A stretch of 38,005 nucleotides of DNA from a virus. A program made the position numbers and the translations under genes. The DNA lies in IMG/VR virus record IMGVR_UViG_3300025082_000024, positions 1 through 38,005 of that record. One strand, 5' to 3'. Shown here in pieces: positions 26,070 to 38,005 of this stretch (within the stretch, counting starts at the first letter, position 1; each line of letters starts with the position of its first letter). The notes beneath the pieces are model-generated. The model saw nothing but the letters and a program-made list of their open reading frames with translations, did no database searches and had not been told where the DNA came from.

Positions 26070-26113
26070 TATAATGAGGTCGTTTTAATGCCTGTTACAT
26101 ATTATTAGCATTA
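26070..26113 (+). repeat. Degenerate cassette junction element
   Basis: Short stem AGG/CCT around the loop CGTTTTAATG (26081-26090), ending in GTTAC (26094-26098). A box TTAGCATTA (26105-26113) follows that is the exact inverse of TAATGCTAA (26265-26273) behind the next gene. The expected G of GTT is A here. The first junction of the left array. Confidence 0.55.
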
Positions 26114-26135
26114 GTTTAATTTAAAAAATATAGAA

Positions 26136-26267
26136 ATGACACAACAAGAAAGAACAGAACTTTACAAAAAAGAAAGCGGATTTAATTACTTAGAAAAAGG
26201 TGATAGTTGGGCTTTTGATGATGGTGTTTGGCACTTTGACGGTGATTTATGGTATTACCCTAATTAA
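26136..26267 (+). CDS. 43-residue cassette protein, aromatic-rich
   Basis: Starts MTQQERTELYKKESGFNYLE, then DSWAFDDGVWHFDGDLWYY: an unusually high Trp/Phe/Tyr/Asp content. Good A-rich leader (AAATATAGAA). Bracketed by a private 9-bp inverted repeat (26105-26113 / 26265-26273). Function unknown. Confidence 0.55.
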   Translation: MTQQERTELYKKESGFNYLEKGDSWAFDDGVWHFDGDLWYYPN

Positions 26268-26363
26268 TGCTAACGGTCCAGCTATGATTAGTAAAATTGA
26301 AACACGAACAAATAAATTATTAACCAACATTGGCTTTTATTAATTATAGCCCGTGTTATAAAC
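26265..26363 (+). repeat. attC-like palindromic junction element (full type)
   Basis: TAAC 26271-26274, 6-nt spacer, left arm GCTATGATTA (26281-26290), right arm TAATTATAGC (26341-26350, one mismatch), 4-nt spacer, GTTATAA (26355-26361). Its right box GTTATAAAC (26355-26363) is the exact inverse of GTTTATAAC at 26558-26566, beyond the next gene. Confidence 0.75.
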
Positions 26364-26372
26364 TTTTGAATT

Positions 26373-26555
26373 ATGAATGTAAAAGAATTGATTAAGGAAT
26401 TAAAAAAGTATGATGAGAAAACAGAAGTATGTGCTGGATATTTAACATCTAATAACTGTATGGTACACGCTGACTTAATTATTAAAGAATCTCATCCAAT
26501 AGGTGATAGAGATACCGAAGAAGAACTTTTGCTGTGGGTAGGGTGTGAAGAGTAA
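26373..26555 (+). CDS. Small cassette protein resembling a widespread phage family
   Basis: 60 residues. The N-terminus MNVKELIKELKKYDEKTEV is typical of a widespread family of short phage proteins that begin with this helix and a turn; their function is unknown. Bracketed by a perfect 9-bp private inverted repeat (26355-26363 / 26558-26566), so it forms one unit. Confidence 0.7.
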   Translation: MNVKELIKELKKYDEKTEVCAGYLTSNNCMVHADLIIKESHPIGDRDTEEELLLWVGCEE

Positions 26556-26557
26556 TT

Positions 26558-26613
26558 GTTTATAACGCATTGTGTATGGCATCGTTTTAATGTGCTATAC
26601 ACGTTGTTGTAAA
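26558..26613 (+). repeat. attC-like palindromic junction element (full type)
   Basis: TAAC 26563-26566, 5-nt spacer, left arm GTGTATGGCA (26572-26581), loop containing CGTTTTAATG (26583-26592), right arm TGCTATACAC (26593-26602), 3-nt spacer, GTTGTAAA (26606-26613). The box GTTGTAAA is the exact inverse of TTTACAAC (26848-26855) behind the next gene. Confidence 0.78.
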
Positions 26614-26634
26614 TCTTTTAAAAATACGGATAAA

Positions 26635-26835
26635 ATGGAAAAATATTATTTTAAAACAACTGGATGGGATAATGGAACTTGCACCGAGAAATGCAAGGTA
26701 AAAGACAATGGTGTAATGATTGGAAGTGTAAAATGTCAGCAATGTGAATTTTGCGTAGAACACCAAAAACCTTGTGAATTTACAGGTGATGTAGATTGGA
26801 TAAAATGCAGTAAACTTGATGAAGCACGTAAGTAG
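26635..26835 (+). CDS. Cys-rich (zinc-binding-like) cassette protein
   Basis: 66 residues from ATG 26635; the longer frame from 26572 starts inside the palindromic element and is rejected. Cysteines occur as CTEKC, CQQCEFC and two single Cys, with His between, suggesting one or two zinc sites. Flanked by a private 8-bp inverted repeat. Function unknown. Confidence 0.65.
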   Translation: MEKYYFKTTGWDNGTCTEKCKVKDNGVMIGSVKCQQCEFCVEHQKPCEFTGDVDWIKCSKLDEARK

Positions 26836-26847
26836 TGTTTTTAATTG

Positions 26848-26881
26848 TTTACAACGCATTGTGTATGCCTAGTAGCGTATA
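26848..26881 (+). repeat. Half-type cassette junction element
   Basis: TTTACAAC (26848-26855), GCATT, then GTGTATGC and a short stem with GCGTATA, closely resembling the left part of 26558-26613. No GTTR end follows, so the right half is missing. Confidence 0.55.
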
Positions 26882-26921
26882 AATAGAAATAAATATTGAT
26901 TAATAAATAAAACTTATAAAA

Positions 26922-27179
26922 ATGACACCAGAAACAATTAAAGAACAAGCAGAGCTATTAGGTATAAACGTTGTTAGCAAATCGTTACGGATTGTAAGCG
27001 ACAAATGTGTAAATAGTAACTGGGTTGCAGATTGGGCAGCTATGGAAGATCAAGAACATTGCCAATGTATAGTAGGATGTAAGATTAAGGTAGAATTTTC
27101 GCAAAACGGACACAAACCATACCCTTACATAGTTGACCAATTAGAGTACCAAAATTTAGTAGATAAAACTAAAGAATAG
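26922..27179 (+). CDS. Hypothetical cassette protein with Cys/His
   Basis: 85 residues: MTPETIKEQAELLGINVVSK start, then Cys and His residues (DQEHCQCIVGCKI) that could bind metal, and an acidic/Lys end. Leader TATAAAA. Located between two half-type junction elements; no private inverted repeat could be found. Function unknown. Confidence 0.6.
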   Translation: MTPETIKEQAELLGINVVSKSLRIVSDKCVNSNWVADWAAMEDQEHCQCIVGCKIKVEFSQNGHKPYPYIVDQLEYQNLVDKTKE

Positions 27180-27189
27180 TAATGTTTGC

Positions 27190-27235
27190 TAACGGTTTGG
27201 CTATGCGTAGTGCCGACCTTGATAAATTACTACAC
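27190..27235 (+). repeat. Half-type junction element sharing 28 bp with 32744-32771
   Basis: TAAC at 27190-27193, then a stretch that is the same, apart from one base, as that at 32745-32771 (CTAACGGTTTGGCTATG start). A short hairpin GTAGT (27207-27211) / ACTAC (27229-27233) follows. The right half with GTTR is absent. Confidence 0.6.
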
Positions 27236-27254
27236 TAACTTAAAAGTATTAAAG

Positions 27255-27476
27255 ATGGACTTTGAGCAAATATCTGATAAAGAAAAAGAGGCATTACATA
27301 TAGCTTGTGTTAGCGAGAGTAGTTTAGTTTTTAGAAAAGGTGACTTTGGCGACACGATAGAATTTGATAAATATGATGATGGCGAATTTAGCATTGAATT
27401 AATGGATAGTGGGAGCTATTACTTTACAAAAGAACAGTTAGCATTTATAGTGAAATGGATTTCCTATTCTCGCTAA
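27255..27476 (+). CDS. Hypothetical acidic cassette protein
   Basis: 73 residues from ATG 27255; the frame starting at 27186 begins inside the junction and is rejected. MDFEQISDKEKEALHIACVS start, acidic beta-like middle (DKYDDGEFSIELMDSG). The end Tyr-Ser-Arg-stop lies in the sequence TATTCTCGCTAACGGT, also found at 104-119, so the stop comes from the element's TAAC. Function unknown. Confidence 0.6.
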   Translation: MDFEQISDKEKEALHIACVSESSLVFRKGDFGDTIEFDKYDDGEFSIELMDSGSYYFTKEQLAFIVKWISYSR

Positions 27477-27540
27477 CGGTGAGCTAAACCAGCTTGAGCG
27501 ACGCGAGGCACGAGTGGGGTTTAGCGAGTGTTGTAAATTT
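27471..27540 (+). repeat. attC-like palindromic junction element (full type, GC-rich core)
   Basis: TAAC 27474-27477, 5-nt spacer, perfect 8-bp arms GCTAAACC (27483-27490) / GGTTTAGC (27518-27525), an inner GC-rich hairpin, 4-nt spacer, GTTGTAAA (27530-27537). GTTGTAAATTT (27530-27540) recurs as a direct repeat at 27613-27623. Last element of the left array. Confidence 0.78.
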
Positions 27541-27664: not shown

Positions 27665-28240
27665 ATGAAAAACTTAGAATTGTGGAGCAAGGTTGAGAAA
27701 ACCAATCCAGAGTATACAAAAAAAGCAAATGTAAAGGGAAACCTTTTAACATCAATAGCACCTCAATATCAAATAAAACAGGCAACAGAACAATTTGGCG
27801 TATATGGTATCGGTTGGGGGTTTAGATCAATGGAGTTTGATTATACGTTAGCTAATATCGGTATGGCAACTTTTAAAGCTGTTTTTTATTTTCCAAATGG
27901 AGAATTTGAGATTGTTAACAGCGTACAACTTTACAAGGATGGAGCACAAACAAAGATAGATGATGATTTTGCAAAAAAAGTAGAAACCGACACACTGACA
28001 AAAGCCCTTAGTAAATTAGGTTTCAATGCTGATATATTTTTAGGCAAATTTGATGATACTAAATATGTAGAACAAATGAAACAGGAATTTAAAGAACCAG
28101 CAAAAAAACAAATATTTAAAGAGGGGGGATTTGATAAAGCGTTAAGCTCAGACCAAAAAACGATTTTATCAGTATTGAGCAAATACGAATTAACGCCAGA
28201 TCAAAAGAAACAATTAACCGAAAAACTAAAAACAGCGTAA
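27665..28240 (+). CDS. Putative single-strand annealing recombinase (Rad52/Sak-like)
   Basis: 191 residues. The arrangement LWSKVEKTNPEYTKK at the start, IKQATEQFGVYGIGWGF, and ETDTLTKALSKLGFNADIF followed by GKFDDTKYV is typical of phage annealing proteins of the Rad52-like group. The C-terminal 45 residues form a separate helical tail. Placement beside an SSB-like gene and a Gp157-like gene supports a recombination role. The subfamily is not certain from sequence alone. Confidence 0.65.
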   Translation: MKNLELWSKVEKTNPEYTKKANVKGNLLTSIAPQYQIKQATEQFGVYGIGWGFRSMEFDYTLANIGMATFKAVFYFPNGEFEIVNSVQLYKDGAQTKIDDDFAKKVETDTLTKALSKLGFNADIFLGKFDDTKYVEQMKQEFKEPAKKQIFKEGGFDKALSSDQKTILSVLSKYELTPDQKKQLTEKLKTA

Positions 28241-29532: not shown

Positions 29533-29628
29533 ATGAACAAAATTATACATAAGAACCCATGCTTTGAATGCCTGTTGCGGGCTACAGAGTATGGGTTTTT
29601 GCATTTCGTAACTCATGGCAGAAGATAA
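29533..29628 (+). CDS. 31-residue leader peptide candidate
   Basis: Short frame MNKIIHKNPCFECLLRATEY and onward to a stop at 29626, overlapping the start of the next gene by 14 nt. It spans a strong hairpin. It may be a leader peptide linked to attenuation, or an accident of the palindrome. Leader CGCAACA is acceptable. Low confidence as a gene. Confidence 0.3.
   Translation: MNKIIHKNPCFECLLRATEYGFLHFVTHGRR
29554..29600 (+). terminator. Terminator or attenuator hairpin in the leader of the DUF6291/DnaD-like gene
   Basis: AACCCAT (29554-29560) pairs with ATGGGTT (29591-29597); inside it CTTTG/CAGAG (one mismatch) and GCC/GGC also pair, giving about 15 bp, followed by TTTTT (29596-29600). It lies between a promoter box (29506) and the next gene (29615), so it either ends the upstream operon or attenuates the downstream gene. 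Confidence 0.65.
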
Positions 29629-30409
29629 AAAAGGGTTTCTTATGTATGCCGATCAGAGAGAACAGTTTGACCAGTTGACCGACGAGCAAGCAGGGAAACT
29701 AGTTAAACACCTTTTCGCATACGTTAATGATGAGAACCCGCAAACTGATGATATTGTAACTAAATTATCTTTTACGCCCATTAAAAGCCAATTAAAAAGG
29801 GATTTAATAAAATATAAAGATAAGAAGGAGCAATGGTCATCAGCAGGAAAAGCAAGCGCAGAGGCTAGAAGATTAAAAAGAGAACAGGATTTAACGGATT
29901 CAACGAACGTTAACGACCGTTCAAACCGTTCAACGGATTCAACTGTTAATGTTAATGTTAATGATAATGTTAATGATAATGTTAATGTAAAAGATAATAA
30001 AGATAAAGGGTGTGTGTTTAATTTTAAAAAATCTCTTTTAGATTATGGATTAAAAAAAGAGTTAGTAGAGGACTTTCTAAAAAACAGGAAAACCAAAAAG
30101 TTAACCAATACCGAAACAGCCTTAAATTCTTTTATTGAAGAAATAGAAAAAACTGGCAGCGAAAAAAACGAGGTATTTAAAATAGTAGTACAAAAAGGCT
30201 GGGGAGGTTTTAAAGCTAGTTGGATAGAAAGCACTAAAAATAATAGTGCAACAAATGATGGTATACCAGCGAATCCAGATATGAACTATTTAAATCATTT
30301 TAGCAGGACACCGCAAGAGTATATTGCAGCTCAGCGAAAATGGGCTGCTTTAGGTTATAAGGTGAAAAAGAATAGAGTAACTGGTAAGGTGGTTGATTTT
30401 TATAAATAA
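29615..30409 (+). CDS. Replication initiator-type protein (DUF6291 / DnaD-like)
   Basis: 264 residues. N-terminal DUF6291-like domain (FLMYADQREQFDQLTDEQAG, KLVKHLFAYVND) ending in a basic helix; a low-complexity linker of Val-Asn-Asp repeats (about 109-131); and a C-terminal helical domain with WGGFKASWIE, like DnaD-type replisome organisers. Expected to recruit host helicase to the phage origin. The linker is encoded by tandem GTTAAT/GATAAT hexamers (29947-29998). Confidence 0.75.
   Translation: MAEDKKGFLMYADQREQFDQLTDEQAGKLVKHLFAYVNDENPQTDDIVTKLSFTPIKSQLKRDLIKYKDKKEQWSSAGKASAEARRLKREQDLTDSTNVNDRSNRSTDSTVNVNVNDNVNDNVNVKDNKDKGCVFNFKKSLLDYGLKKELVEDFLKNRKTKKLTNTETALNSFIEEIEKTGSEKNEVFKIVVQKGWGGFKASWIESTKNNSATNDGIPANPDMNYLNHFSRTPQEYIAAQRKWAALGYKVKKNRVTGKVVDFYK
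29947..29998. repeat. Tandem hexamer repeat coding a Val-Asn-Asp linker
   Basis: About eight units of GTTAAT/GATAAT in a row inside the replication gene, giving Val-Asn and Asp-Asn pairs. The unit length keeps the frame, so gain or loss of copies would only change linker length. Likely a slippage-prone tract. Confidence 0.7.
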
Positions 30410-30415
30410 TTAGAT

Positions 30416-31648
30416 ATGAATTTTGATAAATATATTTGTGTAATGTTTCCTTATCCCAGCGGTAACGGGTTGCACATTGGACATTTTTATAATTATGCAA
30501 TAATAGATAGCTATTGTAATTATTTAAGGTATAAAAAGGAGTCAGTATTTCAGCCTTTTGGTTATGATAGCTTCGGTCTTCCAGCTGAAAATTATGCAAA
30601 AAAGATAGGAGGAGACCCAAAGAAGGTAACGGAAAACAACATAGTTAATTTTAACAACCAGATGGATCACATGAATACATCGTTTGATTATTTAATATCT
30701 ACGCATTCTAAAGAGTATCAGGTTCATACAAAATGGTTATTTAACCAATTATATGAAAAGGGATTAGCATATAAAAAACAGGGAATTGTTAATTATTGCA
30801 AATCATGTGAAACCGTACTAGCAAATGAACAGGTAATAAATAATAATTGCGAGAGGTGTAATAGTGTTATAGAAAAAAAGGAGTTAAGCCAATGGTATTT
30901 TAAAATAACTGACTACAAAAAAAGATTAATAGAGGGGTTGAATAATTTAGATTATCCTGGCAGTACGATTAATGCACAAAAAAAATGGTTAGAAAATCAG
31001 CACGATTGGTGCGTTAGCCGTCAACGGGACTGGGGTTGTAGGATACCCGTAAAAGGAGAGACTGATACTCTTGATACATTTGTAGATAGTTCATTTTATT
31101 ATATTATTTATTGTTTGGTCAAGGGCATAAAGCCTAAACAGGTAGATTTATATGTTGGAGGTGCTGAACACGCCTGTATGCACTTAATCTACGCTAGATT
31201 TATTAATATGTTTCTTTATGATATTGGGTATATTGATTTTGAGGAGCCATTTAAAAAAGTAATTCACCAAGGAATGATATTAAACAATGGCGAAAAAATG
31301 AGCAAAAGCAAAGGGAATATAGTTAACCCTGACGATTATAATCCTAAGATTCTTAGATTTTATATGATGTTTATAGGCCATTATTTTGATGGTGGTAGTT
31401 GGAGTGATGAAAATATAAAAGGGATAGAGAGATTTTTTAAACGGTTCGATTTATGGACATCGAAAGAGGGTAAAGATGTTATTGATCTAAACAAATTTAA
31501 GGATGAGATTTTTAACTATACAGATGCATTTAAATTTAATAAAGTGGTTAGCTCTTTTATGATATTGTTTAATAAAAACAAGAACAAGCAATTAACTAGA
31601 GAACAGAATTATGAATTAAGAAATTTACTTAAGATATATACAGCATAA
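30416..31648 (+). CDS. Minimal leucyl-tRNA synthetase-like protein without editing or C-terminal domain
   Basis: 410 residues; bacterial LeuRS is about 800-870. The class I catalytic core is intact: FPYPSGNGLHIGH (HIGH at 20-23), PFGYDSFGLPAEN, zinc-site Cys at 128, 131, 145 and 148, DTFVDSSFYY, YVGGAEHACMHLIYARF, and KMSKS at 294-298 (GEKMSKSKGNIVNPDD). Where LeuRS carries the ~200-residue CP1 editing domain, the chain passes directly from QKKW (191) to DWCVSRQRDWG. Only part of the anticodon-side helical bundle remains at the end, and the C-terminal tRNA-binding domain is absent. Probably activates leucine; tRNA charging is uncertain. It ends the early operon. Confidence 0.92.
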   Translation: MNFDKYICVMFPYPSGNGLHIGHFYNYAIIDSYCNYLRYKKESVFQPFGYDSFGLPAENYAKKIGGDPKKVTENNIVNFNNQMDHMNTSFDYLISTHSKEYQVHTKWLFNQLYEKGLAYKKQGIVNYCKSCETVLANEQVINNNCERCNSVIEKKELSQWYFKITDYKKRLIEGLNNLDYPGSTINAQKKWLENQHDWCVSRQRDWGCRIPVKGETDTLDTFVDSSFYYIIYCLVKGIKPKQVDLYVGGAEHACMHLIYARFINMFLYDIGYIDFEEPFKKVIHQGMILNNGEKMSKSKGNIVNPDDYNPKILRFYMMFIGHYFDGGSWSDENIKGIERFFKRFDLWTSKEGKDVIDLNKFKDEIFNYTDAFKFNKVVSSFMILFNKNKNKQLTREQNYELRNLLKIYTA

Positions 31649-31739
31649 TGTTAAGTATAAACTGCGTAGCCTAGCAGTAAAGTAGGCTGATGAAATAAAT
31701 GTTTAATTGGCTATGCTGTTTTATGCAGTGTTAGTATTA
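31646..31739 (+). repeat. attC-like junction element (full type) after the LeuRS gene
   Basis: Starts TAATGTTA at the LeuRS stop. Arms ACTGCGTAGCC (31661-31671) and GGCTA...GCAGT (31709-31729, with an insertion), spacer, GTTAG (31730-31734). The right box GTTAGTATTA (31730-31739) is the inverse, 9 of 10, of TAATGCTAAC (31998-32007). First junction of the right array. Confidence 0.6.
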
Positions 31740-31997: not shown

Positions 31998-32067
31998 TAA
32001 TGCTAACGCTTGTGTATGCTCTGTATGGAGTGCAACGGAATATGGAGTATGACACGTTGTTATACTC
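31998..32067 (+). repeat. attC-like palindromic junction element (full type)
   Basis: TAAC 32004-32007, 4-nt spacer, left arm GTGTATGCTC (32012-32021), right arm GAGTATGACAC (32045-32055, one extra base unpaired), 3-nt spacer, GTTATAC (32059-32065). Closely similar to 37599-37668. The right box GTTATACTC is the inverse, 8 of 9, of GAGTATAAT (32276-32284). Confidence 0.78.
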
Positions 32068-32085
32068 TTTTAAACAAAACAAATT

Positions 32086-32277
32086 ATGAAAGACTTATTT
32101 AAATCATCAGTAAAAAGTAACTTAAAGTTTGAGCCAATAGAACCTAATTATGAGGGTATAGCTAAAGTATTATCTGAGCTTGAAAAACTATACAAGGTTT
32201 GTGATAACAAAGAACTACTAGATAAATGTTTAGAGAACTTTTGTGTACCTAAACACTTGATTAGCCAAAATAATTGA
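32086..32277 (+). CDS. Hypothetical cassette protein
   Basis: 63 residues, basic start (MKDLFKSSVKSNLKFEPIEP) then a helix with Cys (LEKLYKVCDNKELLDKCLEN). Leader ACAAATT. Bracketed by a private 9-bp inverted repeat (32059-32067 / 32276-32284). Function unknown. Confidence 0.6.
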   Translation: MKDLFKSSVKSNLKFEPIEPNYEGIAKVLSELEKLYKVCDNKELLDKCLENFCVPKHLISQNN

Positions 32278-32340
32278 GTATAATGGTTAGTATAAGAAAC
32301 GTGGCTTTTCGCCATGTTATTTATACAGTGTTAGTTGCAG
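32276..32340 (+). repeat. attC-like palindromic junction element, compact double stem
   Basis: Outer arms GTATAA (32290-32295) / TTATAC (32321-32326), inner arms CGTGGC (32300-32305) / GCCATG (32311-32316) with a TTTTC loop, 3-nt spacer, GTTAG (32330-32334). The right box GTTAGTTGCAG (32330-32340) is the inverse, 10 of 11, of TTGCAACTAAC (32738-32748). Confidence 0.75.
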
Positions 32341-32372
32341 TTTTATTAATAATAAATTTAAAAATAAATAAG

Positions 32373-32747
32373 ATGAATAAGAAATTAGCAAAAATTACAA
32401 GTGCAAAACTTGAGATTAAAGAAAGAGGAATTTTAAACTTTTGGATATTTGTTGAATACGAAGAAGGTGGAGGACAAGGAATAGGCGGTTTGGCTTTGGA
32501 TGAATGGGATAAAGACAAGAAAAAAAGAGTTGGAACGGCTTATGGTTGTGAAATGATAAGGTGTTTATTAGAAACATTAAGCGTTAATGATTTTAGCGAA
32601 ATGAAAGATAAAATGATTTGGGTACACGGTGAAGGTGATGGATTAAGATTTGCACCAAAAGGAATTGCACCATTAAAAGTAAGTGGAGAAAATAAAGAGC
32701 CATTGATTTTTGAAGATGTATTTAATGAGTTTGGTAATTGCAACTAA
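32373..32747 (+). CDS. Conserved hypothetical cassette protein
   Basis: 124 residues from ATG 32373; the frame from 32274 starts in the junction and is rejected. It has GGGQGIGGLALDEWDKDKKK and a VGTAYGCEMIRCLLETLSV helix, a layout I associate with small phage proteins of unknown function. The C-terminus and stop (Asn-Cys-Asn-stop) overlap the next element's TAAC. Private inverted repeat of 10 of 11 on both sides. Confidence 0.65.
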   Translation: MNKKLAKITSAKLEIKERGILNFWIFVEYEEGGGQGIGGLALDEWDKDKKKRVGTAYGCEMIRCLLETLSVNDFSEMKDKMIWVHGEGDGLRFAPKGIAPLKVSGENKEPLIFEDVFNEFGNCN

Positions 32748-32785
32748 CGGTTTGGCTATGTGTAGTGCCGATATTAAAACTACAC
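32738..32785 (+). repeat. Half-type junction element, near-copy of 27190-27235
   Basis: TAAC 32745-32748, then the same GGTTTGGCTATG... stretch as 27190 onward, and a perfect 7-bp hairpin GTGTAGT (32760-32766) / ACTACAC (32779-32785). There is no right GTTR end. Confidence 0.6.
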
Positions 32786-32801
32786 GCTTAAATAAAGACT
32801 T

Positions 32802-33035
32802 ATGAAAACTAATATAGTAGGAACACCAAAAGGAATAGGTAAAGAGGCATTACATATAGGTGGTGTTATAATTTCGTTGCCGTTGCGTGAACGAATAGAA
32901 TTTATTTTAAATGCTTCAAAAAAAGCTACTAAAAAACGAAAAGAACAAGGATTCCCAATGACACATAAAAAAAGGCAGATGTATGAAATGGGTTTTGAAG
33001 ATGCTATTGAATGGATTTTAGGTAATGAATTATAA
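32802..33035 (+). CDS. Hypothetical basic cassette protein
   Basis: 77 residues: MKTNIVGTPKGIGKEALHIG start, then a very basic helical region (NASKKATKKRKEQGFPMTHK) and an acidic/hydrophobic end. Might bind nucleic acid. Its stop TAA is part of the following element (TATAACA). Function unknown. Confidence 0.6.
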   Translation: MKTNIVGTPKGIGKEALHIGGVIISLPLRERIEFILNASKKATKKRKEQGFPMTHKKRQMYEMGFEDAIEWILGNEL

Positions 33036-33120
33036 CAATGGTTAGCCTAAAAAGCGTGACCGCAAAAGATTGATTTACGCATGAATCTGCCTCATGCTTT
33101 TTTAGGCAGTGTTATAAATA
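33031..33120 (+). repeat. attC-like palindromic junction element (longest stem)
   Basis: TAAC 33033-33036, 8-nt spacer, left arm GCCTAAAAAGCGTGA (33045-33059), right arm TCATGCTTTTTTAGGC (33092-33107; one mismatch and one extra base), 3-nt spacer, GTTATAA (33111-33117). The right box GTTATAAATA (33111-33120) is the exact inverse of TATTTATAAC (33307-33316). Confidence 0.8.
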
Positions 33121-33128
33121 GTTTTGTT

Positions 33129-33305
33129 ATGATTTATGAAATATGGGAAGACCCCAAGAATAAGCCTATAAAAATTGCCACAAATGAAATAAAACACCTT
33201 TTTAAAGGAGATACAATTGTGATTAATGGAGAAATGTATGTTGTAGATAATAAACGGCTTAACGTTGATACTGAAACATTGATTGTTTGGGTTGAAATAT
33301 GCTAA
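33129..33305 (+). CDS. Hypothetical cassette protein
   Basis: 58 residues from ATG 33129; the frame starting 33081 begins in the palindrome and is rejected. Beta-type pattern (DTIVINGEMYVVDNKRLNVD), ending TLIVWVEIC. Perfect 10-bp private inverted repeat on both sides. Function unknown. Confidence 0.6.
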   Translation: MIYEIWEDPKNKPIKIATNEIKHLFKGDTIVINGEMYVVDNKRLNVDTETLIVWVEIC

Positions 33306-33306
33306 T

Positions 33307-33345
33307 TATTTATAACATTATGCTATAGCATATATGCTATAGCCC
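33307..33345 (+). repeat. Half-type junction element with a tandem decamer
   Basis: Starts TATTTATAAC (33307-33316), the inverse of the box in front of the preceding gene, then ATGCTATAGC twice in tandem separated by ATAT. The right half (GTTR) is absent. End of this run of cassettes. Confidence 0.6.
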
Positions 33346-33373
33346 TATTTTATAAAATATTTACTTTTTATAT

Positions 33374-33381
33374 TAAATTTG
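33374..33381 (+). promoter_or_regulatory. Promoter -7 box TAAATTTG, near-leaderless
   Basis: TAAATTTG followed by AAAT and the ATG at 33386. Same spacing as at 3800, 18908 and 33849. Confidence 0.6.
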
Positions 33382-33385
33382 AAAT

Positions 33386-33526
33386 ATGACAAAAGAGGAA
33401 TTTATAAAAGACTATTGCGAAAATTCAGTAATAAATGAGGGGTTTATTGATAAATATCTGGATGTTGTAGAATGTGACAAAGACGCTAGGGGGTGGAAAG
33501 TAATTAATAAAAATGATAATGAATAA
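33386..33526 (+). CDS. 46-residue hypothetical protein
   Basis: Starts MTKEEFIKDYCENSVINEGF, acidic, ends in Asn/Asp. It begins 4 nt after a promoter box and overlaps the HNH gene, so it probably leads that operon. Not recognised. Confidence 0.55.
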   Translation: MTKEEFIKDYCENSVINEGFIDKYLDVVECDKDARGWKVINKNDNE

Positions 33527-33839
33527 ACACGTAAAGAATTATTTGACTTTTTTTGGATACGAAAAAGGGGATTGGATACCTTCTGAAGTCTCAGGATGTG
33601 CAGGAAATGACATACACCATATCCACGCAAAAAAAATGGGAGGCAGAAAACAGTTTGAATATAAAGGCAAGGTATTCGATATTGATGCTATAGAGAATTT
33701 AATTTGCTTAACGAGGCTAGAACACGAGGCAGCACACGACCCCACAAGGATGGACCACTTAACTAAAGATGAACTTTGGGAGCTGCATAAAAAAAAGCTA
33801 GAAGCACATGAAAGGGTAAGCAAATCTAGGATGCAATGA
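33519..33839 (+). CDS. HNH endonuclease-like protein
   Basis: 106 residues from ATG 33519 (an ATG at 33513 is an alternative). The HNH pattern is present: DIHHIHAKKMGG, a central DAIENLICLTRLEHEAAH with the Asn and the final His. The N-terminal Cys (GCAGND) may add a zinc ligand. Small HNH proteins often assist terminase or act in recombination or homing. The distance from terS makes the packaging role uncertain. Confidence 0.75.
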   Translation: MNKHVKNYLTFFGYEKGDWIPSEVSGCAGNDIHHIHAKKMGGRKQFEYKGKVFDIDAIENLICLTRLEHEAAHDPTRMDHLTKDELWELHKKKLEAHERVSKSRMQ

Positions 33840-33848
33840 TAGTATTGT

Positions 33849-33856
33849 TATATTTG
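33849..33856 (+). promoter_or_regulatory. Promoter -7 box TATATTTG, near-leaderless
   Basis: TATATTTG followed by CTAT and the ATG at 33861, the same 4-nt spacing as three other promoters here. Confidence 0.6.
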
Positions 33857-33860
33857 CTAT

Positions 33861-34040
33861 ATGGAAATAATTAAGAATAGTTGTGGTAGGCGAGGGTGTG
33901 AGCTTAGAATTATATTGCCTGTCTGTAGGGTGTCTAAGTATGTTTCTACAAAATTGCTACGAACCGACGGGAATATTACGAAGATATTACGTACTACTGG
34001 TCTATTTGTGGATCAAGTGGAGGAGAAAAAAGCAGCGTAA
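33861..34040 (+). CDS. Small basic hypothetical protein
   Basis: 59 residues starting MEIIKNSCGRRGCELRIILP, basic with Cys, ending in EEKKAA. The start is supported by the promoter box 4 nt upstream. Its 3' half overlaps the next frame. The composition would suit a nucleic-acid-binding protein; nothing more can be said. Confidence 0.55.
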   Translation: MEIIKNSCGRRGCELRIILPVCRVSKYVSTKLLRTDGNITKILRTTGLFVDQVEEKKAA

Positions 34041-34206
34041 ATACAGGTCCATATTATCACCTCTTGGATTATGTCCTCAATGTCAAAATTTTTGGATTAA
34101 TACTATACTATACCCTATATTCTTTGGATTAACGCCAGAATATATATTATCTATAGGAGGTACCTATATTGTGGTTGAGCTTATAATTATTATAAAAAGA
34201 AAATAA
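33940..34206 (+). CDS. Small membrane protein with a CPQC motif
   Basis: The frame opens before 33940; the start is uncertain. ATG 33940 and TTG 34006 are both possible, and a GTG at 33883 seems too far upstream. The conserved-looking part is LSPLGLCPQCQNFWINTILY, a following membrane helix and a second one at the end (IVVELIIIIKRK). Small membrane proteins with this Cys-x-x-Cys-Asn/Gln-x-Trp pattern occur in Bacteroidota phages; function unknown. Confidence 0.5.
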   Translation: MFLQNCYEPTGILRRYYVLLVYLWIKWRRKKQRKYRSILSPLGLCPQCQNFWINTILYPIFFGLTPEYILSIGGTYIVVELIIIIKRK

Positions 34207-34253
34207 TTACCCTTTTTTGTTGCTTGTATTGTTTAAAGTCGTAATATTACAAC

Positions 34254-35168
34254 ATGAAACAACAAACAAACACAATTATGGAAACAATAACAGAAATAAA
34301 AAACAGAACGGAGCAAGTAAAAACGATGGCGTTAGGCCACCTTTGGGAGCTTTGTTATAGAGCACATTCAAACACATCTTTTAGCCCTGAAAAGCGAGCT
34401 AATAGTTATGTAAGCGAATACAGCGAGATGTTAGAAGCCGACTTAAAAGAATTGAGAGAAAACCAAGGCAATTACAAAGAAAAATTCATATCAAGGTTTA
34501 GTGATTGGATGAGTGCAAAAGGTAGATGTATTTCCTCAATGATTACAGGCGGTTCTAATTTTCCAGTAAGACGGGCGCAAAAGGCTAACGATTCAGAGCG
34601 TAACAAATGCGATTCTTTCTACCATTGGAGGGAAAAATATTTTAAAGCGGTTAATAGAGTACCAACAAAAAGCCCAGAGGATGACAAGGAAGCAGCAGAA
34701 CGCAAGCTAGAAAAATTGGTTAACAATCAATTGGAGAGGAAAGCGATTAATGCAGCAATAAGAAAAAGCAAACTAACGAACGAAAGCGAGTTATTAAATC
34801 ATTTAATTGCTTTAGATTTTAGTCCGAAGAATATAAAATTAATTGATTACAGAGGCGGTAAATTTAAAATTCCATCTTTTTACCTAACCAACAACAACGC
34901 AATGATTAAAAACACTAAGGATAAGATCAAAGCAATGGAAACCAGAATAGAACGCAAAATGACATGGGAAGATATTACGTTTGAAGGTGGTTACGTGACA
35001 ATCGAAGATGATCGTTTAAAGATATTCCACAACGAAAAACCAACCCGCGAAGTAATACAGGAAATTAAATCTAATGGTTACAGGTGGTCTCCTAATTGGG
35101 TTTGTTGGTGCAGAAAACATACAGGCAATGCAGTATTCGGATTGAAACATTTATCATTTTTAAAATAG
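34254..35168 (+). CDS. Conserved Bacteroidota mobile-element protein with C-terminal LPD-like domain
   Basis: 304 residues. An N-terminal helical region with SPEKRANSYVSEYSEMLEAD and the conserved SMITGGSNFPVRRAQKANDS, a charged middle, and a C-terminal domain (VTIEDDRLKIFHNEKPT, IKSNGYRWSPNWVCW). That domain resembles small LPD-type domains of phage and conjugative-element proteins. Similar proteins occur in Bacteroidota mobile elements without a known activity. Placement in an accessory operon is consistent with host-interaction work. Confidence 0.65.
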   Translation: MKQQTNTIMETITEIKNRTEQVKTMALGHLWELCYRAHSNTSFSPEKRANSYVSEYSEMLEADLKELRENQGNYKEKFISRFSDWMSAKGRCISSMITGGSNFPVRRAQKANDSERNKCDSFYHWREKYFKAVNRVPTKSPEDDKEAAERKLEKLVNNQLERKAINAAIRKSKLTNESELLNHLIALDFSPKNIKLIDYRGGKFKIPSFYLTNNNAMIKNTKDKIKAMETRIERKMTWEDITFEGGYVTIEDDRLKIFHNEKPTREVIQEIKSNGYRWSPNWVCWCRKHTGNAVFGLKHLSFLK

Positions 35169-35770: not shown

Positions 35771-35829
35771 TATTTACTAACGTTATTAATAAATTGGCGT
35801 TTCAATGCAATTTATTTTGTGTTGTACGC
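35771..35829 (+). repeat. attC-like palindromic junction element (full type)
   Basis: TAAC 35778-35781, 6-nt spacer, left arm AATAAATTG (35788-35796), loop with CGTTTCAATG, right arm CAATTTATT (35808-35816), 4-nt spacer, GTTGTAC (35821-35827). The right box GTTGTACGC is the exact inverse of GCGTACAAC (36068-36076). Confidence 0.78.
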
Positions 35830-35846
35830 TTTCTAAAATACGAATT

Positions 35847-36056
35847 ATGACAGAAATATTTAATGTAAAAGACAAATTACCCGATGTAGAATGTGGAAGC
35901 TATTTAGCTTATGCGCCACGTAGTTTTCCAAAAAATAGTAGATGGGTAGTTGCTGAATACTATGACGATGTAAAAGGGTTTTATGATGAAGCTGGTGAAA
36001 ACTTCATGGAAGATGTGACCCATTGGTGCGAACTACCAAAAGAACCAGAAGCGTAG
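35847..36056 (+). CDS. DUF551-family protein, second copy
   Basis: 69 residues from ATG 35847; the frame from 35805 begins in the junction. Same plan as the gene at 186-404: VKDKLPDVECGSYLAYAPRS, WVVAEYYDDV, EDVTHWCELPKEP. The two proteins are clearly related but diverged. The region just after each gene is identical over 27 bp. Bracketed by a perfect 9-bp private inverted repeat. Confidence 0.83.
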   Translation: MTEIFNVKDKLPDVECGSYLAYAPRSFPKNSRWVVAEYYDDVKGFYDEAGENFMEDVTHWCELPKEPEA

Positions 36057-36067
36057 TATTTTATATT

Positions 36068-36098
36068 GCGTACAACAGGGGGATAAAGAACACTCACA
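36068..36098 (+). repeat. Cassette right boundary with a 27-bp repeat shared with 419-445
   Basis: Starts GCGTACAAC, the inverse of the box before the gene. Bases 36072-36098 are identical to 419-445. As at that site, no right half with GTTR is seen. Confidence 0.65.
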
Positions 36099-36132
36099 AC
36101 GGATAGATATATGAATTTTTAAAAACACGGAT

Positions 36133-36363
36133 ATGAAAACTAAAAGATGCGGATATTGCGGAACACCAATAGACAACGAATGTAACCCTCTAAGCCTTGA
36201 GGAATGCAATAAACTTACAGAGAAGCAACTAAATGAAGCTGAACAAGACCACGGAAACTGCTGTGTAAATGAACAGCAAGAAGATAATTATATTACCGTA
36301 ACTAAAGATATGGCTTCTGATGCTTGCGACCCTAGCTTAGAGGGAATGCGATGGAAATGGTAG
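36133..36363 (+). CDS. Cys-rich hypothetical cassette protein
   Basis: 76 residues: MKTKRCGYCGTPIDNECNPL start with a CGYC zinc-knuckle-like pair, further Cys (ECNKL, GNCC, DACD), and a Trp at the end. A zinc-binding small protein is likely; function unknown. Confidence 0.6.
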   Translation: MKTKRCGYCGTPIDNECNPLSLEECNKLTEKQLNEAEQDHGNCCVNEQQEDNYITVTKDMASDACDPSLEGMRWKW

Positions 36364-36380
36364 TGTTTTTATTATTTATA

Positions 36381-36415
36381 TACCGTGTTAGCATTGCGTT
36401 TTAATGAATGCTAAC
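36381..36415 (+). repeat. Empty mini-cassette: GTTAGCATT / AATGCTAAC with an 11-nt centre
   Basis: A CCGTGTTA end like that at 26351-26358, then GTTAGCATT (36387-36395) and its perfect inverse AATGCTAAC (36407-36415), separated only by GCGTTTTAATG. It looks like a unit that has lost its gene. The loop carries the CGTTTTAATG motif (36397-36406). Confidence 0.6.
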
Positions 36416-36466
36416 GCTTAGGCTAAACGGTCGTTTTAATGCCGTTTTAGCCATTGTTAGGCTTAG
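36407..36466 (+). repeat. attC-like palindromic junction element with a classical GTTAGGC core
   Basis: TAAC 36412-36415, 5-nt spacer, left arm GGCTAAACGG (36421-36430), loop with CGTTTTAATG (36432-36441), right arm CCGTTTTAGCC (36442-36452, one extra base), 3-nt spacer, GTTAGGC (36456-36462), which fits the classical GTTRRRY. The right box GTTAGGCTTAG is the inverse of TTAAGCCTAAT (36713-36723) over a core of 9 bases. Confidence 0.8.
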
Positions 36467-36488
36467 TATTAATAAAAAAGATAAGATT

Positions 36489-36716
36489 ATGAAAAAACAA
36501 TTTTTATTATTTGCAGGAGATGATTACTACCCTGAAGGTGGTGCAGACGATTTTAAAGGCTCTTTTGAAACAACCGAATTAGCAGTAACGGCACACAACC
36601 CAAGCGAACACAAATATGATGGCGGTTGGGCTAACATATTTGATTTAAAAGAAGAAAAAATTGTTAAGCAATTCAGTAGGGGAACTTGGTATGAAGGTGA
36701 TACTGAAATATATTAA
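36489..36716 (+). CDS. Hypothetical cassette protein
   Basis: 75 residues from ATG 36489; the frame starting 36408 begins in the palindrome. FLLFAGDDYYPEGGADDFKG and DGGWANIFDLKEEKIVKQFS suggest a small beta protein. Private inverted repeat on both sides. Phage proteins with a similar start are common, but no function is known. Confidence 0.6.
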   Translation: MKKQFLLFAGDDYYPEGGADDFKGSFETTELAVTAHNPSEHKYDGGWANIFDLKEEKIVKQFSRGTWYEGDTEIY

Positions 36717-36770
36717 GCCTAATGAGAAAAGCTAGGGCGCGTTTCATGCGCTTTAGGTTATGTTACCTAT
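36713..36770 (+). repeat. attC-like junction element
   Basis: Starts TTAAGCCTAAT, arms around CTAGGGCGC (36733-36741) / GCGCTTTAG (36748-36756) with a loop GTTTCAT, then TTA and GTTACC (36762-36767). The right box GTTACCTAT (36762-36770) is the exact inverse of ATAGGTAAC (37275-37283). Confidence 0.65.
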
Positions 36771-36810
36771 TGTACCTTTTGTGCGGTGGGAATTTAAAAA
36801 ATGATAACAA

Positions 36811-37278
36811 ATGAAAGAAGGAATGGAATATAGAGCATGGGTTACAGCCGATAAAGGTGGTTGGTATAACTGTGATAATTGGAATGAATTTGATTGGGAC
36901 AACAGAATGAGGAAAGTTGGAGCAATGTACTTCCCTTTAGGTAGTTATTCAGGCAAGGATATATCATTAGAGGAGATTGAATGTGAGGGCGAAGACAATT
37001 ACGCTAGTGGGTGGATTGCCTTAAATGAATGTATACTAATGCCATGGGTAGGGTTAAAGGACACTAAAGACGTTAAATTCTTCGTTGGAGACATTGCCGT
37101 GTTTGACAATGGAGATAAATTCGTTCTAAAAATGGAGGATTGGCTAGAATTTTTCGCTGATTGGGTTGGAGATGCTGAATGTGAAGATCAAACAAGGGAT
37201 TTATATAGAATTGAACGATCTACTATAATCGGTAATATTTACGAGAATCCAGAGTTGTTGGAGAAAAAGGTATTATAG
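36811..37278 (+). CDS. YopX-family protein
   Basis: 155 residues. The start MKEGMEYRAWVTADKGGWY, the middle LNECILMPWVGLKD followed by FFVGDIAVFDNGDKF, and the end IGNIYENPELLE are the marks of the YopX family of phage proteins. The function of the family is not established. The ATG follows an A-rich stretch (GATAACAA). Private 9-bp inverted repeat on both sides. Confidence 0.85.
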   Translation: MKEGMEYRAWVTADKGGWYNCDNWNEFDWDNRMRKVGAMYFPLGSYSGKDISLEEIECEGEDNYASGWIALNECILMPWVGLKDTKDVKFFVGDIAVFDNGDKFVLKMEDWLEFFADWVGDAECEDQTRDLYRIERSTIIGNIYENPELLEKKVL

Positions 37279-37371
37279 GTAACGCTTGTATAAGATACGT
37301 GCGACTAAGAAAGCAAAACAAATTAAAACTAAATGTTAAATGAGCATGGATTTTATACCATGTTATATTGA
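37275..37371 (+). repeat. attC-like palindromic junction element (full type)
   Basis: TAAC 37280-37283, 4-nt spacer, left arm GTATAAGATACGTGC (37288-37302), right arm GCATGGATTTTATAC (37344-37358; three mismatches), 3-nt spacer, GTTATAT (37362-37368). The right box GTTATATTGA is the exact inverse of TCAATATAAC (37599-37608). Confidence 0.75.
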
Positions 37372-37378
37372 GTGAATT

Positions 37379-37597
37379 ATGAAAATAAGAGTAACAGTAA
37401 GAGAAACGGTTTACAAAACATTAGAGGTTGATACTATTGATTTTGGAATGGAAGAAACAACAACAAAGCAAGTTTTTGAGTTGGCGGAAACAATTAACGA
37501 TATTAAGGAAAACCCAAGCGGTCTACTTAACCAATATAAAGATGAAGTGGATACTCAAAAAGAAATAAATAGCGTTGAGATAGTTCCAATAGGCTAA
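37379..37597 (+). CDS. Hypothetical cassette protein
   Basis: 72 residues: beta-type start MKIRVTVRETVYKTLEVDTI, acidic helix (QVFELAETINDIKENPSGLL), beta-type end (EINSVEIVPIG). Bracketed by a perfect 10-bp private inverted repeat. Function unknown. Confidence 0.6.
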   Translation: MKIRVTVRETVYKTLEVDTIDFGMEETTTKQVFELAETINDIKENPSGLLNQYKDEVDTQKEINSVEIVPIG

Positions 37598-37598
37598 T

Positions 37599-37668
37599 TC
37601 AATATAACGCTTGTGTATGCTCTGTATGGAGCAAAGCGGAATATGGAGTATAAACCTTGTTATAAGTA
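37599..37668 (+). repeat. attC-like palindromic junction element (near-copy of 31998-32067)
   Basis: TAAC 37605-37608, left arm GTGTATGCTC (37613-37622), right arm beginning GAGTATA (37646-37652), GTTATAA (37659-37665). Most bases match the element at 31998-32067. The right box GTTATAAGTA (37659-37668) is the inverse, 9 of 10, of TACTTATAAT (37873-37882). Confidence 0.72.
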
Positions 37669-37676
37669 TTTTAATT

Positions 37677-37871
37677 ATGAACACAGTATATTTTCAACCA
37701 CCCGACATAAAGAAAGAATTTTGTGAAATTGGTATGATTTCAGAAACCGACCCAGATTACATTTGGTACTTAGATGAACCATGTAAAGTATTAATCAAAG
37801 ATGTAAAAATAATAGACAAGGAAAACGTAGCCTACGACAAAAAGAATAGGGTGCATAAAGTAAAAAGCTAA
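37677..37871 (+). CDS. Hypothetical cassette protein
   Basis: 64 residues from ATG 37677; the frame from 37611 begins in the palindrome. MNTVYFQPPDIKKEFCEIGM start, acidic, ending in a basic segment (KKNRVHKVKS). Preceded by GTTATAAGTA and followed by TACTTATAAT, a private inverted repeat, but with no palindrome after it. Function unknown. Confidence 0.6.
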   Translation: MNTVYFQPPDIKKEFCEIGMISETDPDYIWYLDEPCKVLIKDVKIIDKENVAYDKKNRVHKVKS

Positions 37872-37880
37872 TTACTTATA

Positions 37881-38005
37881 ATGGACAAGAATAAAAAACG
37901 TAACGATATGAGAGAAGAAATACTAAAAGTGGTAATGAACCACATGGAGAAAGCAGAAACAGCATTTAAAATAACTGATGAGTTATGTATTTTATTTGGT
38001 GTTAG
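37881..38005 (+). CDS. Small protein of unknown function, 5' part (gene continues at position 1)
   Basis: The frame opens with ATG at 37881 and runs 41 codons plus two bases to the window end without a stop. Joined to position 1 it continues in frame (split codon AG|A, Arg) to the stop at 113-115, giving a 79-residue protein starting MDKNKKRNDMREEILKVVMN. The N-terminal half looks helical and charged; the C-terminal half is rich in Lys and Tyr. The ATG lies inside the right-hand box of the preceding cassette unit (TACTTATAAT, 37873-37882). I do not recognise the family. The seamless join is the main evidence that the molecule is circular or circularly permuted. Confidence 0.75.
   Translation, partial: MDKNKKRNDMREEILKVVMNHMEKAETAFKITDELCILFGV

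Follow-up and report, generated by a model that had tools for sequence, protein, structure and literature searches.

Two phage-borne arrays of attC-like hairpins with reversed polarity and apparent coding of the N-termini of downstream proteins

In integron cassette arrays and CALINs the boxes RYYYAAC and GTTRRRY are situated around imperfect inverted arms, L'' and L', and the sites are normally viewed as non-coding tags after genes. For canonical attC sites it has been reported that exchange occurs at R' only, that the extrahelical bases (EHBs) are located on the R''-L'' arm, that on the bottom strand the R' box has a G after its AAC, and that removal of the EHBs results in a partial loss of strand specificity and a shift to R'' (Bouvier 2009, PMC2727003). 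CALINs, i.e., attC clusters without an integrase, are also known from phage genomes, including the Polaribacter phage P12002L, and some phage attC sites were recombined by IntI1 in E. coli (Qi et al. 2023, PMC9892861). Two further phenomena are related. In the case of the attI1 reading frames ORF-11 and ORF-18, and of short reading frames within attC, a recombination site has a translation start that aids the next cassette (PMC8876359), and two cassette genes can be joined to fused gene cassettes, which arise by loss of the attC (PMC4670013, PMC8876359).

A contig of 38,005 bases was analyzed here, and this whole stretch of DNA is called the window. Genes for a terminase, a portal protein, an endolysin and replication identify it as a phage, the nearest relatives of the terminase are found in Riemerella and Flavobacterium phages (46% identity), and the host type of this uncultured phage is Bacteroidota-type bacteria. 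The phage contains two arrays, in which small gene units on the same strand (GTT...AAC) alternate with attC-like hairpins (AAC...GTT) that have the order AAC, spacer, arm, loop, arm, spacer, GTT, and the limits of the units coincide with the R boxes. The left array extends from about 26.1 to 27.5 kb. The right array starts at about 31.6 kb, gives way to ordinary genes between 33.4 and 35.5 kb, and runs to the window end and on into the window start. This arrangement is revealed by the contig L005, which is identical to the window over 11.7 kb and bridges the window end and the window start over 42 bases, so that the right array crosses the contig join.

Between 26070 and 27540 the initial annotation had described five small genes on one strand, each followed by an element, and all of these genes and elements were recovered; all features are on the + strand. 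Gene unit 1 (26104-26274) contains a gene for 43 aa (26136-26267) and has the ends ATTAGCATTAGTTT / TAATTAATGCTAAC, which are complementary at 9/9 positions and have the G/A marker mismatch described below. It is followed by hairpin S1 (26272-26357), which has a scanner score of 31 and a DNA fold z of -2.1. Unit 2 (26355-26566; gene 26373-26555, 60 aa; ends GTTATAAAC / GTTTATAAC) is followed by hairpin S2 (26564-26608, score 27), and unit 3 (26606-26855; gene 26635-26835, 66 aa) has the ends GTTGTAAA / TTTACAAC. The next two elements, as well as the element at 32746 in the right array, had been regarded as half-type. This turned out to be wrong, because all three are complete and their right arms are found 85-100 nt further, within the next ORF (GGTATAAACGTTGTT, GGCATTACATATAGCTTGTGTT and GGCATTACATATAGGTGGTGTT for the elements at 26853, 27191 and 32746). 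Thus, S3 (26853-26975) carries an ATG in its loop (26922) and its right arm codes for GINVV, and unit 4 (26973-27193; ends GTTAGCAAA / TTTGCTAAC) is the body of ORF 26922-27179 and has no start of its own. The same is true for S4 (27191-27311; score 28.5), with an ATG at 27255 in the loop and a right arm that codes for ALHIACV and has 55 viral relatives. Unit 5 (27309-27477) is the body of ORF 27255-27476, again without its own start, and its ends are GTTAGCGAGAGTAG / CTATTCTCGCTAAC, also quoted as GTTAGCGAGA / TCTCGCTAAC. S5 (27475-27532; score 25.5, fold z -1.9) is the last hairpin of the left array.

The right array begins with hairpin S6 (31647-31732), for which a fold was found and which has the right end GTTAG. 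Hairpin S7 (32005-32061) has an extra base in the right arm and recurs between other genes as S18 (37606-37661). After S7 follow a unit at 32059-32284 (gene 32086-32277; own-end match 7/9), hairpin S8 (32282-32332; fold z -4.3), and a unit at 32330-32748 (gene 32373-32747) with the ends GTTAGTTGCAGTTT / TAATTGCAACTAAC, also quoted as GTTAGTTGCA / TGCAACTAAC. Next is the start-carrying hairpin S9 (32746-32867), which has an ATG in the loop (32802) and the leader MKTNIVGTPKGIGKEALHIGGV; the adjacent unit (32865-33036; ends GTTATAATT / AATTATAAC) is the body of ORF 32802-33035 and lacks a start. The block is completed by hairpin S10 (33034-33113; score 31, fold z -3.0) and a unit at 33111-33316 (gene 33129-33305; own-end match 8/9).

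Beyond the ordinary genes, hairpin S13 (35779-35823; score 23) precedes a unit (35821-36076; own-end match 7/9) with a DUF551 gene according to Pfam (35847-36056). The phage has two DUF551 genes, and the other one (186-401) is also at a cassette position. Hairpin S15 (36413-36458; score 26.5) and hairpin S16 (36721-36764; fold z -2.6) surround the unit 36456-36723 (gene 36489-36716). The further units are at 36762-37283, with a gene for a YopX-domain protein (36811-37278; Pfam PF09643; own-end match 7/9), at 37362-37608 (gene 37379-37597; with own-end match), and at 37659-37882 (gene 37677-37871; own-end match 8/9). The first two are separated by hairpin S17 (37281-37364; score 26), and the last two by S18. 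S19 (37880-38003) is likely a start-carrying hairpin with an ATG at 37908 in the loop, and the ends of its body are GTTAGCGAGAGTAA / TTATTCTCGCTAAC. Its ORF runs beyond the window end to the AAC at position 114 and is present as a whole in L005; the array then continues with hairpin S0 (114-161; score 29). The start-carrying sites of the window are thus three, plus a fourth across the join, the arms of which were judged by eye only.

Several side observations were made. The loop motif CGTTTTAATG is present at the tip of otherwise unlike short hairpins (window 26085, 26582 and 36432; L116, L118, L122, L234 and L242). At 36098-36387 the arms AACGGATAGATATATG ... TATTTATATACCGTGTT seem to flank the whole gene 36133-36363, again judged by eye only, and at 36387-36415 there is a geneless unit with self-complementary ends (GTTAGCATTGCG...GAATGCTAAC). 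A 21-base inverted repeat (29545-29647, 81% complementary) surrounds position 29615, where the replication gene starts. The region 29912-29947 was considered as an attC-like site and rejected, because it is a coding repeat. An Rfam search of the window yielded no match, and most window cassettes have no Pfam family.

The number of sites was higher than in shuffled sequences in every array block, e.g., three AACG...GTT sites with a scanner score of at least 26 were observed between 26060 and 27560 versus 0.02 expected from shuffles. R boxes that bound imperfect inverted L''/L' arms are present, as scored against shuffles, but the boxes are relaxed to YAAC and GTTR. When most of the short sites were folded as single-stranded DNA, z was about -2 to -4, which is only weakly significant, and the sites with long loops were not significant; the strong evidence is comparative, not based on folding. 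The + strand, i.e., the gene-coding strand, folds better at 12/14 window sites. This strand preference, together with 13 terminator-like matches versus 5.5 expected from shuffles, would agree with ordinary hairpins in the intergenic regions of small phage genes, which would act as rho-independent terminators or as mRNA structures. However, most sites have no T run, only few of the array hairpins pass a terminator scan, and terminators do not account for the box-and-arm order, the hairpin families common to unrelated phages and bacteria, the right arms within coding sequence, the re-assortment of modules, and the complementarity of unit ends. The terminator reading was rejected, because few of the hairpins have a GC-rich stem followed by a T run and because of the own-end complementarity, and it is hardly conceivable that it is correct.

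Unit ends that are complementary to each other are a hallmark of integron cassettes. For 51 cassette bodies from viral contigs the own ends matched at 6.76 of the nine positions beyond the core, in comparison to 3.48 when starts and ends were permuted (sd 0.20, maximum 4.14; 2000 permutations). The match of own ends was 0.87-1.00 at positions 0-9, it never occurred at position 10, it was present again at positions 11-13, and there was none beyond. The mismatch at position 10 is fixed, with a G at the unit start and an A in the reverse complement of the unit end. For each body, the best-matching position close to the stop codon was taken as its 3' end, and these chosen ends were retained in the permutation, so that the excess is slightly favoured by this choice, but the gap between 6.76 and 3.48 far exceeds any effect of it. 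In addition, no choice of ends was needed for the control array L182 (Balneolaceae), which is located next to an intact intI and has the same own-end profile over positions 0-10; the profile of the window units matches that of this IntI-bearing control. The bacterial attC arrays, i.e., sedentary chromosomal integrons as represented by L182, also share the alternation of cassettes and hairpins and the R-box sequences with the phage arrays. Self-pairing of R''/R' over 9-11 nt was reported for most cassettes (Bouvier 2009, PMC2727003). Within an array each site obtains its two boxes from two different units, as is to be expected after cassette insertion.

The initial annotation had recognized the attC-like order of the elements, which was confirmed, but it had missed the start codons in the loops and the flipped polarity. 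It had also noted an extra unpaired base in the right arm. This base is real (e.g., 32005-32061 and 36413-36458), but it is not placed as in a canonical attC, which has its extra bases in the left (L'') arm. The window sites have the extra bases in the right arm, the longer spacer on the left and the G after the left AAC, and in the control L182 the extra-base arm, the side of the longer spacer and the position of the G are all mirrored. A G after the left AAC is present in the units of both groups, and a C before the GTT on the right is present in the control. Because the right arm carries the extra bases, which canonically belong to the L'' arm, the phage sites are antiparallel to the genes. 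The EHBs are present in some sites, in the arm expected for the reversed orientation, and they are absent in the KALHI family described below.

The orientation was also reflected in the neighbouring genes. In bacterial contigs the genes beside the site were on the opposite strand (46/54 and 55/55), in viral contigs on the same strand (22/23 and 21/21). The units that were found by their ends alone had a similar distribution, i.e., 22 antisense versus 3 sense for bacterial units and 68 sense versus 6 antisense for viral non-KALHI units. Cassette genes mostly parallel to attC, the arrangement of bacterial attC arrays with their non-coding sites, are thus not the rule at the phage sites, and the comparison shows that phage sites are antiparallel to their genes, opposite to bacterial arrays.

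The second deviation from canonical sites are the start codons. The viral contigs were scanned for the right arm that codes for KALHI, which yielded 55 distinct sites. In this family the loop contains an ATG, from which the frame stays open across the KALHI-coding right arm and the GTT box. An in-frame ATG was present in 54/55 sites, the ATGs upstream of the arm were distributed over the three frames as 52:8:2, and past the GTT the frame remained open for a median of 53 codons versus 6 in the other two frames. The leader type M...KALHIxxV precedes 42 unrelated clusters among 50 bodies. There is no ATG within the first 15 codons of 30 of the 46 distinct bodies, and in 34/51 bodies the closing box TAAC includes the TAA stop codon. 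The leader of S3, MTxETIKEQAELLGINVV, represents a second family and precedes at least five unrelated bodies, also in L234, L190, L216 and L185/L192; the scan for this family with a 16-base pattern gave many chance matches. In a third family, EQLRI[AG]xV, the N-terminal part is longer and comprises about 18-50 residues before the arm.

About 20 further sites with a coding right arm were present among the other units found by ends alone. The complementary left arm was mostly located 83-125 bases upstream, in two cases 184 bases, and 15-17 of these about 20 hairpin families scored above all or nearly all shuffles. In this general census some of the frames that are open through GTT could be due to chance; the evidence at the level of families is independent of them. 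The leader families were gathered with exact DNA patterns, so that the conservation of the searched arm is uninformative, and the viral contigs are fragments. The pN/pS value of the leaders was 0.58, indicating weak purifying selection and a weak constraint at the protein level. The coding of the leaders is inferred from frame conservation and this weak selection, without expression data. Pfam had no family for ten leader-fused proteins, the leader site had no match in 50,697 catalogued phages, and the leader-type arm was not found in 299 Flavobacteriaceae genomes. Comparison, not experiment, indicates that in many cases the site supplies the N-terminus of the next protein.

Three single cases were observed in addition. 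Upstream of position 5850 in L117 a KALHI leader follows an apparent tRNA 3' end and has no left arm, i.e., it is a decayed or relocated site, and the leaders at L138 10259 and L145 7193 resemble lipoprotein signal peptides, so that a coding hairpin may set the location of the protein. A general two-state RNA switch, based on local pairing of the left arm ahead of the ATG, was dropped, because it was significant in only 2/21 sites.

In attI1 and attC the short peptide terminates at the core site or close to it, and translation of the cassette gene starts anew (PMC8876359), whereas the ORF of the phage site continues into the cassette, and the product is a single protein. The fused gene cassettes of integrons (PMC4670013, PMC8876359) are also different, because the complete site is kept within the coding sequence of the phage. 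Coding hairpins, N-terminal leaders or a systematic reversal of polarity are not described in the consulted parts of the study of phage CALINs (PMC9892861). A search of open-licence papers found no report of systematic polarity reversal in phages or of attC sites that encode the N-terminus of the protein downstream, and, with this restriction, start-carrying, polarity-flipped sites inside genes appear undescribed.

The initial annotation had named a fixed gene order in related phages as a refutation of its cassette reading, and the reading passed this test. Over the 1,007 bases past the array end (33302-34308) L242 and the window have 97% identity, but the last cassettes of L242 are different ones, i.e., it carries other cassettes at the flank shared with the unit 33111-33316. 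The cassette 36456-36723 recurs with about 92% identity in L239/L240, L241 and L242, and thus occurs in four phage contexts. In L239/L240 and L242 the similarity starts at GTTAGGC. In the L241 copy there is no upstream hairpin and the similarity starts just before the ATG. The similarity ends at GCCTAA or ACCTAA. The hairpins on both sides of this cassette are different each time or missing. Judged by these relatives, cassettes were gained, lost or shuffled at the site boundaries. A difference between L242 (1960-2134) and the window (34254-35168) was also seen, i.e., a gene for 304 aa is missing in L242 and the break is within a repeated sequence of the start region.

Leaders and bodies were also exchanged against each other. 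The body is 99% identical between L101 and L127, the leader only 63%, and the switch is exactly at GTT. Leader MKTNIVGTPKGIGKEALHI of S9 precedes four unrelated bodies (window, L116, L132 and L134). From such alignments it is evident that hairpins and gene bodies have been re-paired at the R box. Among 1,087 pairs of similar sites the downstream body was common to 16 pairs and the upstream gene to none, and the classical assignment of the hairpin to the upstream gene was dropped for this reason.

The main rival explanation is homologous recombination within shared hairpins. In this case the hairpins would be relic attC sites of old host-integron cassettes, which now serve as shared linkers for modules that are swapped by phage homologous recombination, without an integrase. 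Conserved hairpin families of 60-120 nt indeed flank unrelated genes, an exonuclease/recombination-like protein (phrog_7838) is encoded beside the left array (gene 27665-28240), module exchange would be explained, and there is no integrase in the 32 phage records. Relic linkers leave unexplained the own-end complementarity, which extends over about 13 positions and has a single fixed mismatch, and also the breakpoints exactly on GTT between wholly unlike hairpins, as seen with three hairpins at the start of unit 36456-36723 (TTGTTAGGC). We regard this explanation as unlikely, although it has to be taken seriously.

An integrase that might move the cassettes is not encoded by the phage. This absence had been claimed initially and was confirmed: TIGR02249 had no match in the window and none above the cut-off in the 32 related phage records, and a complete integron with integrase gene and attI was not found in the window. 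The view of an attC-like cluster without integrase on a phage gained support from the own-end complementarity, the bacterial site family, the cassette turnover and the R-box boundaries. A stretch of 22 bases of the left arm was found in 66 bacterial and 22 viral contigs. The site family is present in Bacteroidota, Chlorobiota/Ignavibacteria, Neomarinimicrobiota and Calditrichota (L028-L093), and most of the genomes concerned have no clear integron integrase. Of 20 bacterial genomes holding the site, four had an IntI that exceeded the NCBIfam cut-off, and none was shown to adjoin exactly this hairpin. In L181 (Neomarinimicrobiota) intI adjoins AACGG-type sites of similar build. The bacterial versions of the site are not coding, as the frame was not enriched.

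Hairpin substrates and strand polarity are also characteristic of IS200/IS605-like HUH transposases. Another single-strand-DNA hairpin enzyme of this kind, instead of an integron integrase, could therefore have moved the cassettes, which would also agree with the lack of IntI in most site-holding genomes. But the R-box consensus (GTTR/YAAC) and the neighbour base in AACG fit integrons, the own-end complementarity of about 11 nt is that of an IntI-bearing array, and the IntI gene of L181 adjoins AACGG-type sites; an HUH-type enzyme is thus very unlikely.

The explanation that we consider probable is that the phage carries two integron-type cassette arrays (CALIN) with coding, flipped sites, exchange at two boxes, and an integrase acting in trans, with the mover, the recombination and the expression being inferred. 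Due to the flipped polarity the exchange point is predicted to be the left AA^C. The moving cassette would then consist of the site and the downstream gene, and the site could hold the 5' end of the gene, in agreement with the 16 site pairs that share the downstream body and none that shares the upstream gene. As a result of the reversal the site would precede the gene and contribute its start, and each cassette would be a self-contained expression unit. Because many sites have no EHBs, exchange is inferred to occur also at the GTT box, comparable to the EHB-less mutant of Bouvier. Such an exchange would swap leaders or N-terminal segments between bodies and generate new leader-body pairs and new fused proteins. 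The enzyme may be an integron integrase that is encoded by the host or by a co-resident element and would act in trans on the folded strand. Against this explanation stand the absence of EHBs in the main leader family and the re-assortment at both boxes, unlike the one-sided exchange of a classical attC.

A more specific version remains tentative, and we would not yet rely on it, i.e., a two-sided, polarity-flipped system that assembles two-part proteins from start-carrying hairpins and startless C-terminal cassettes, with an in-frame R box and a host integrase in trans. If it were true, the assembly of two-part proteins would be a prokaryotic analogue of exon shuffling.

Very few integrons were reported for Bacteroidota by IntegronFinder 2.0, and the group is nearly free of complete integrons (PMC9024848). 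Since the site family is present in many genomes of the Bacteroidota group, a large pool of cassettes may so far have escaped notice. In the phage the site codes for the start of a gene and the box is a swap point within the reading frame. This makes several questions testable, i.e., how cassettes that are remote from any Pc promoter are expressed, how one attC comes to be common to unrelated genes (cassette birth), and how Bacteroidota phages diversify their small accessory proteins.
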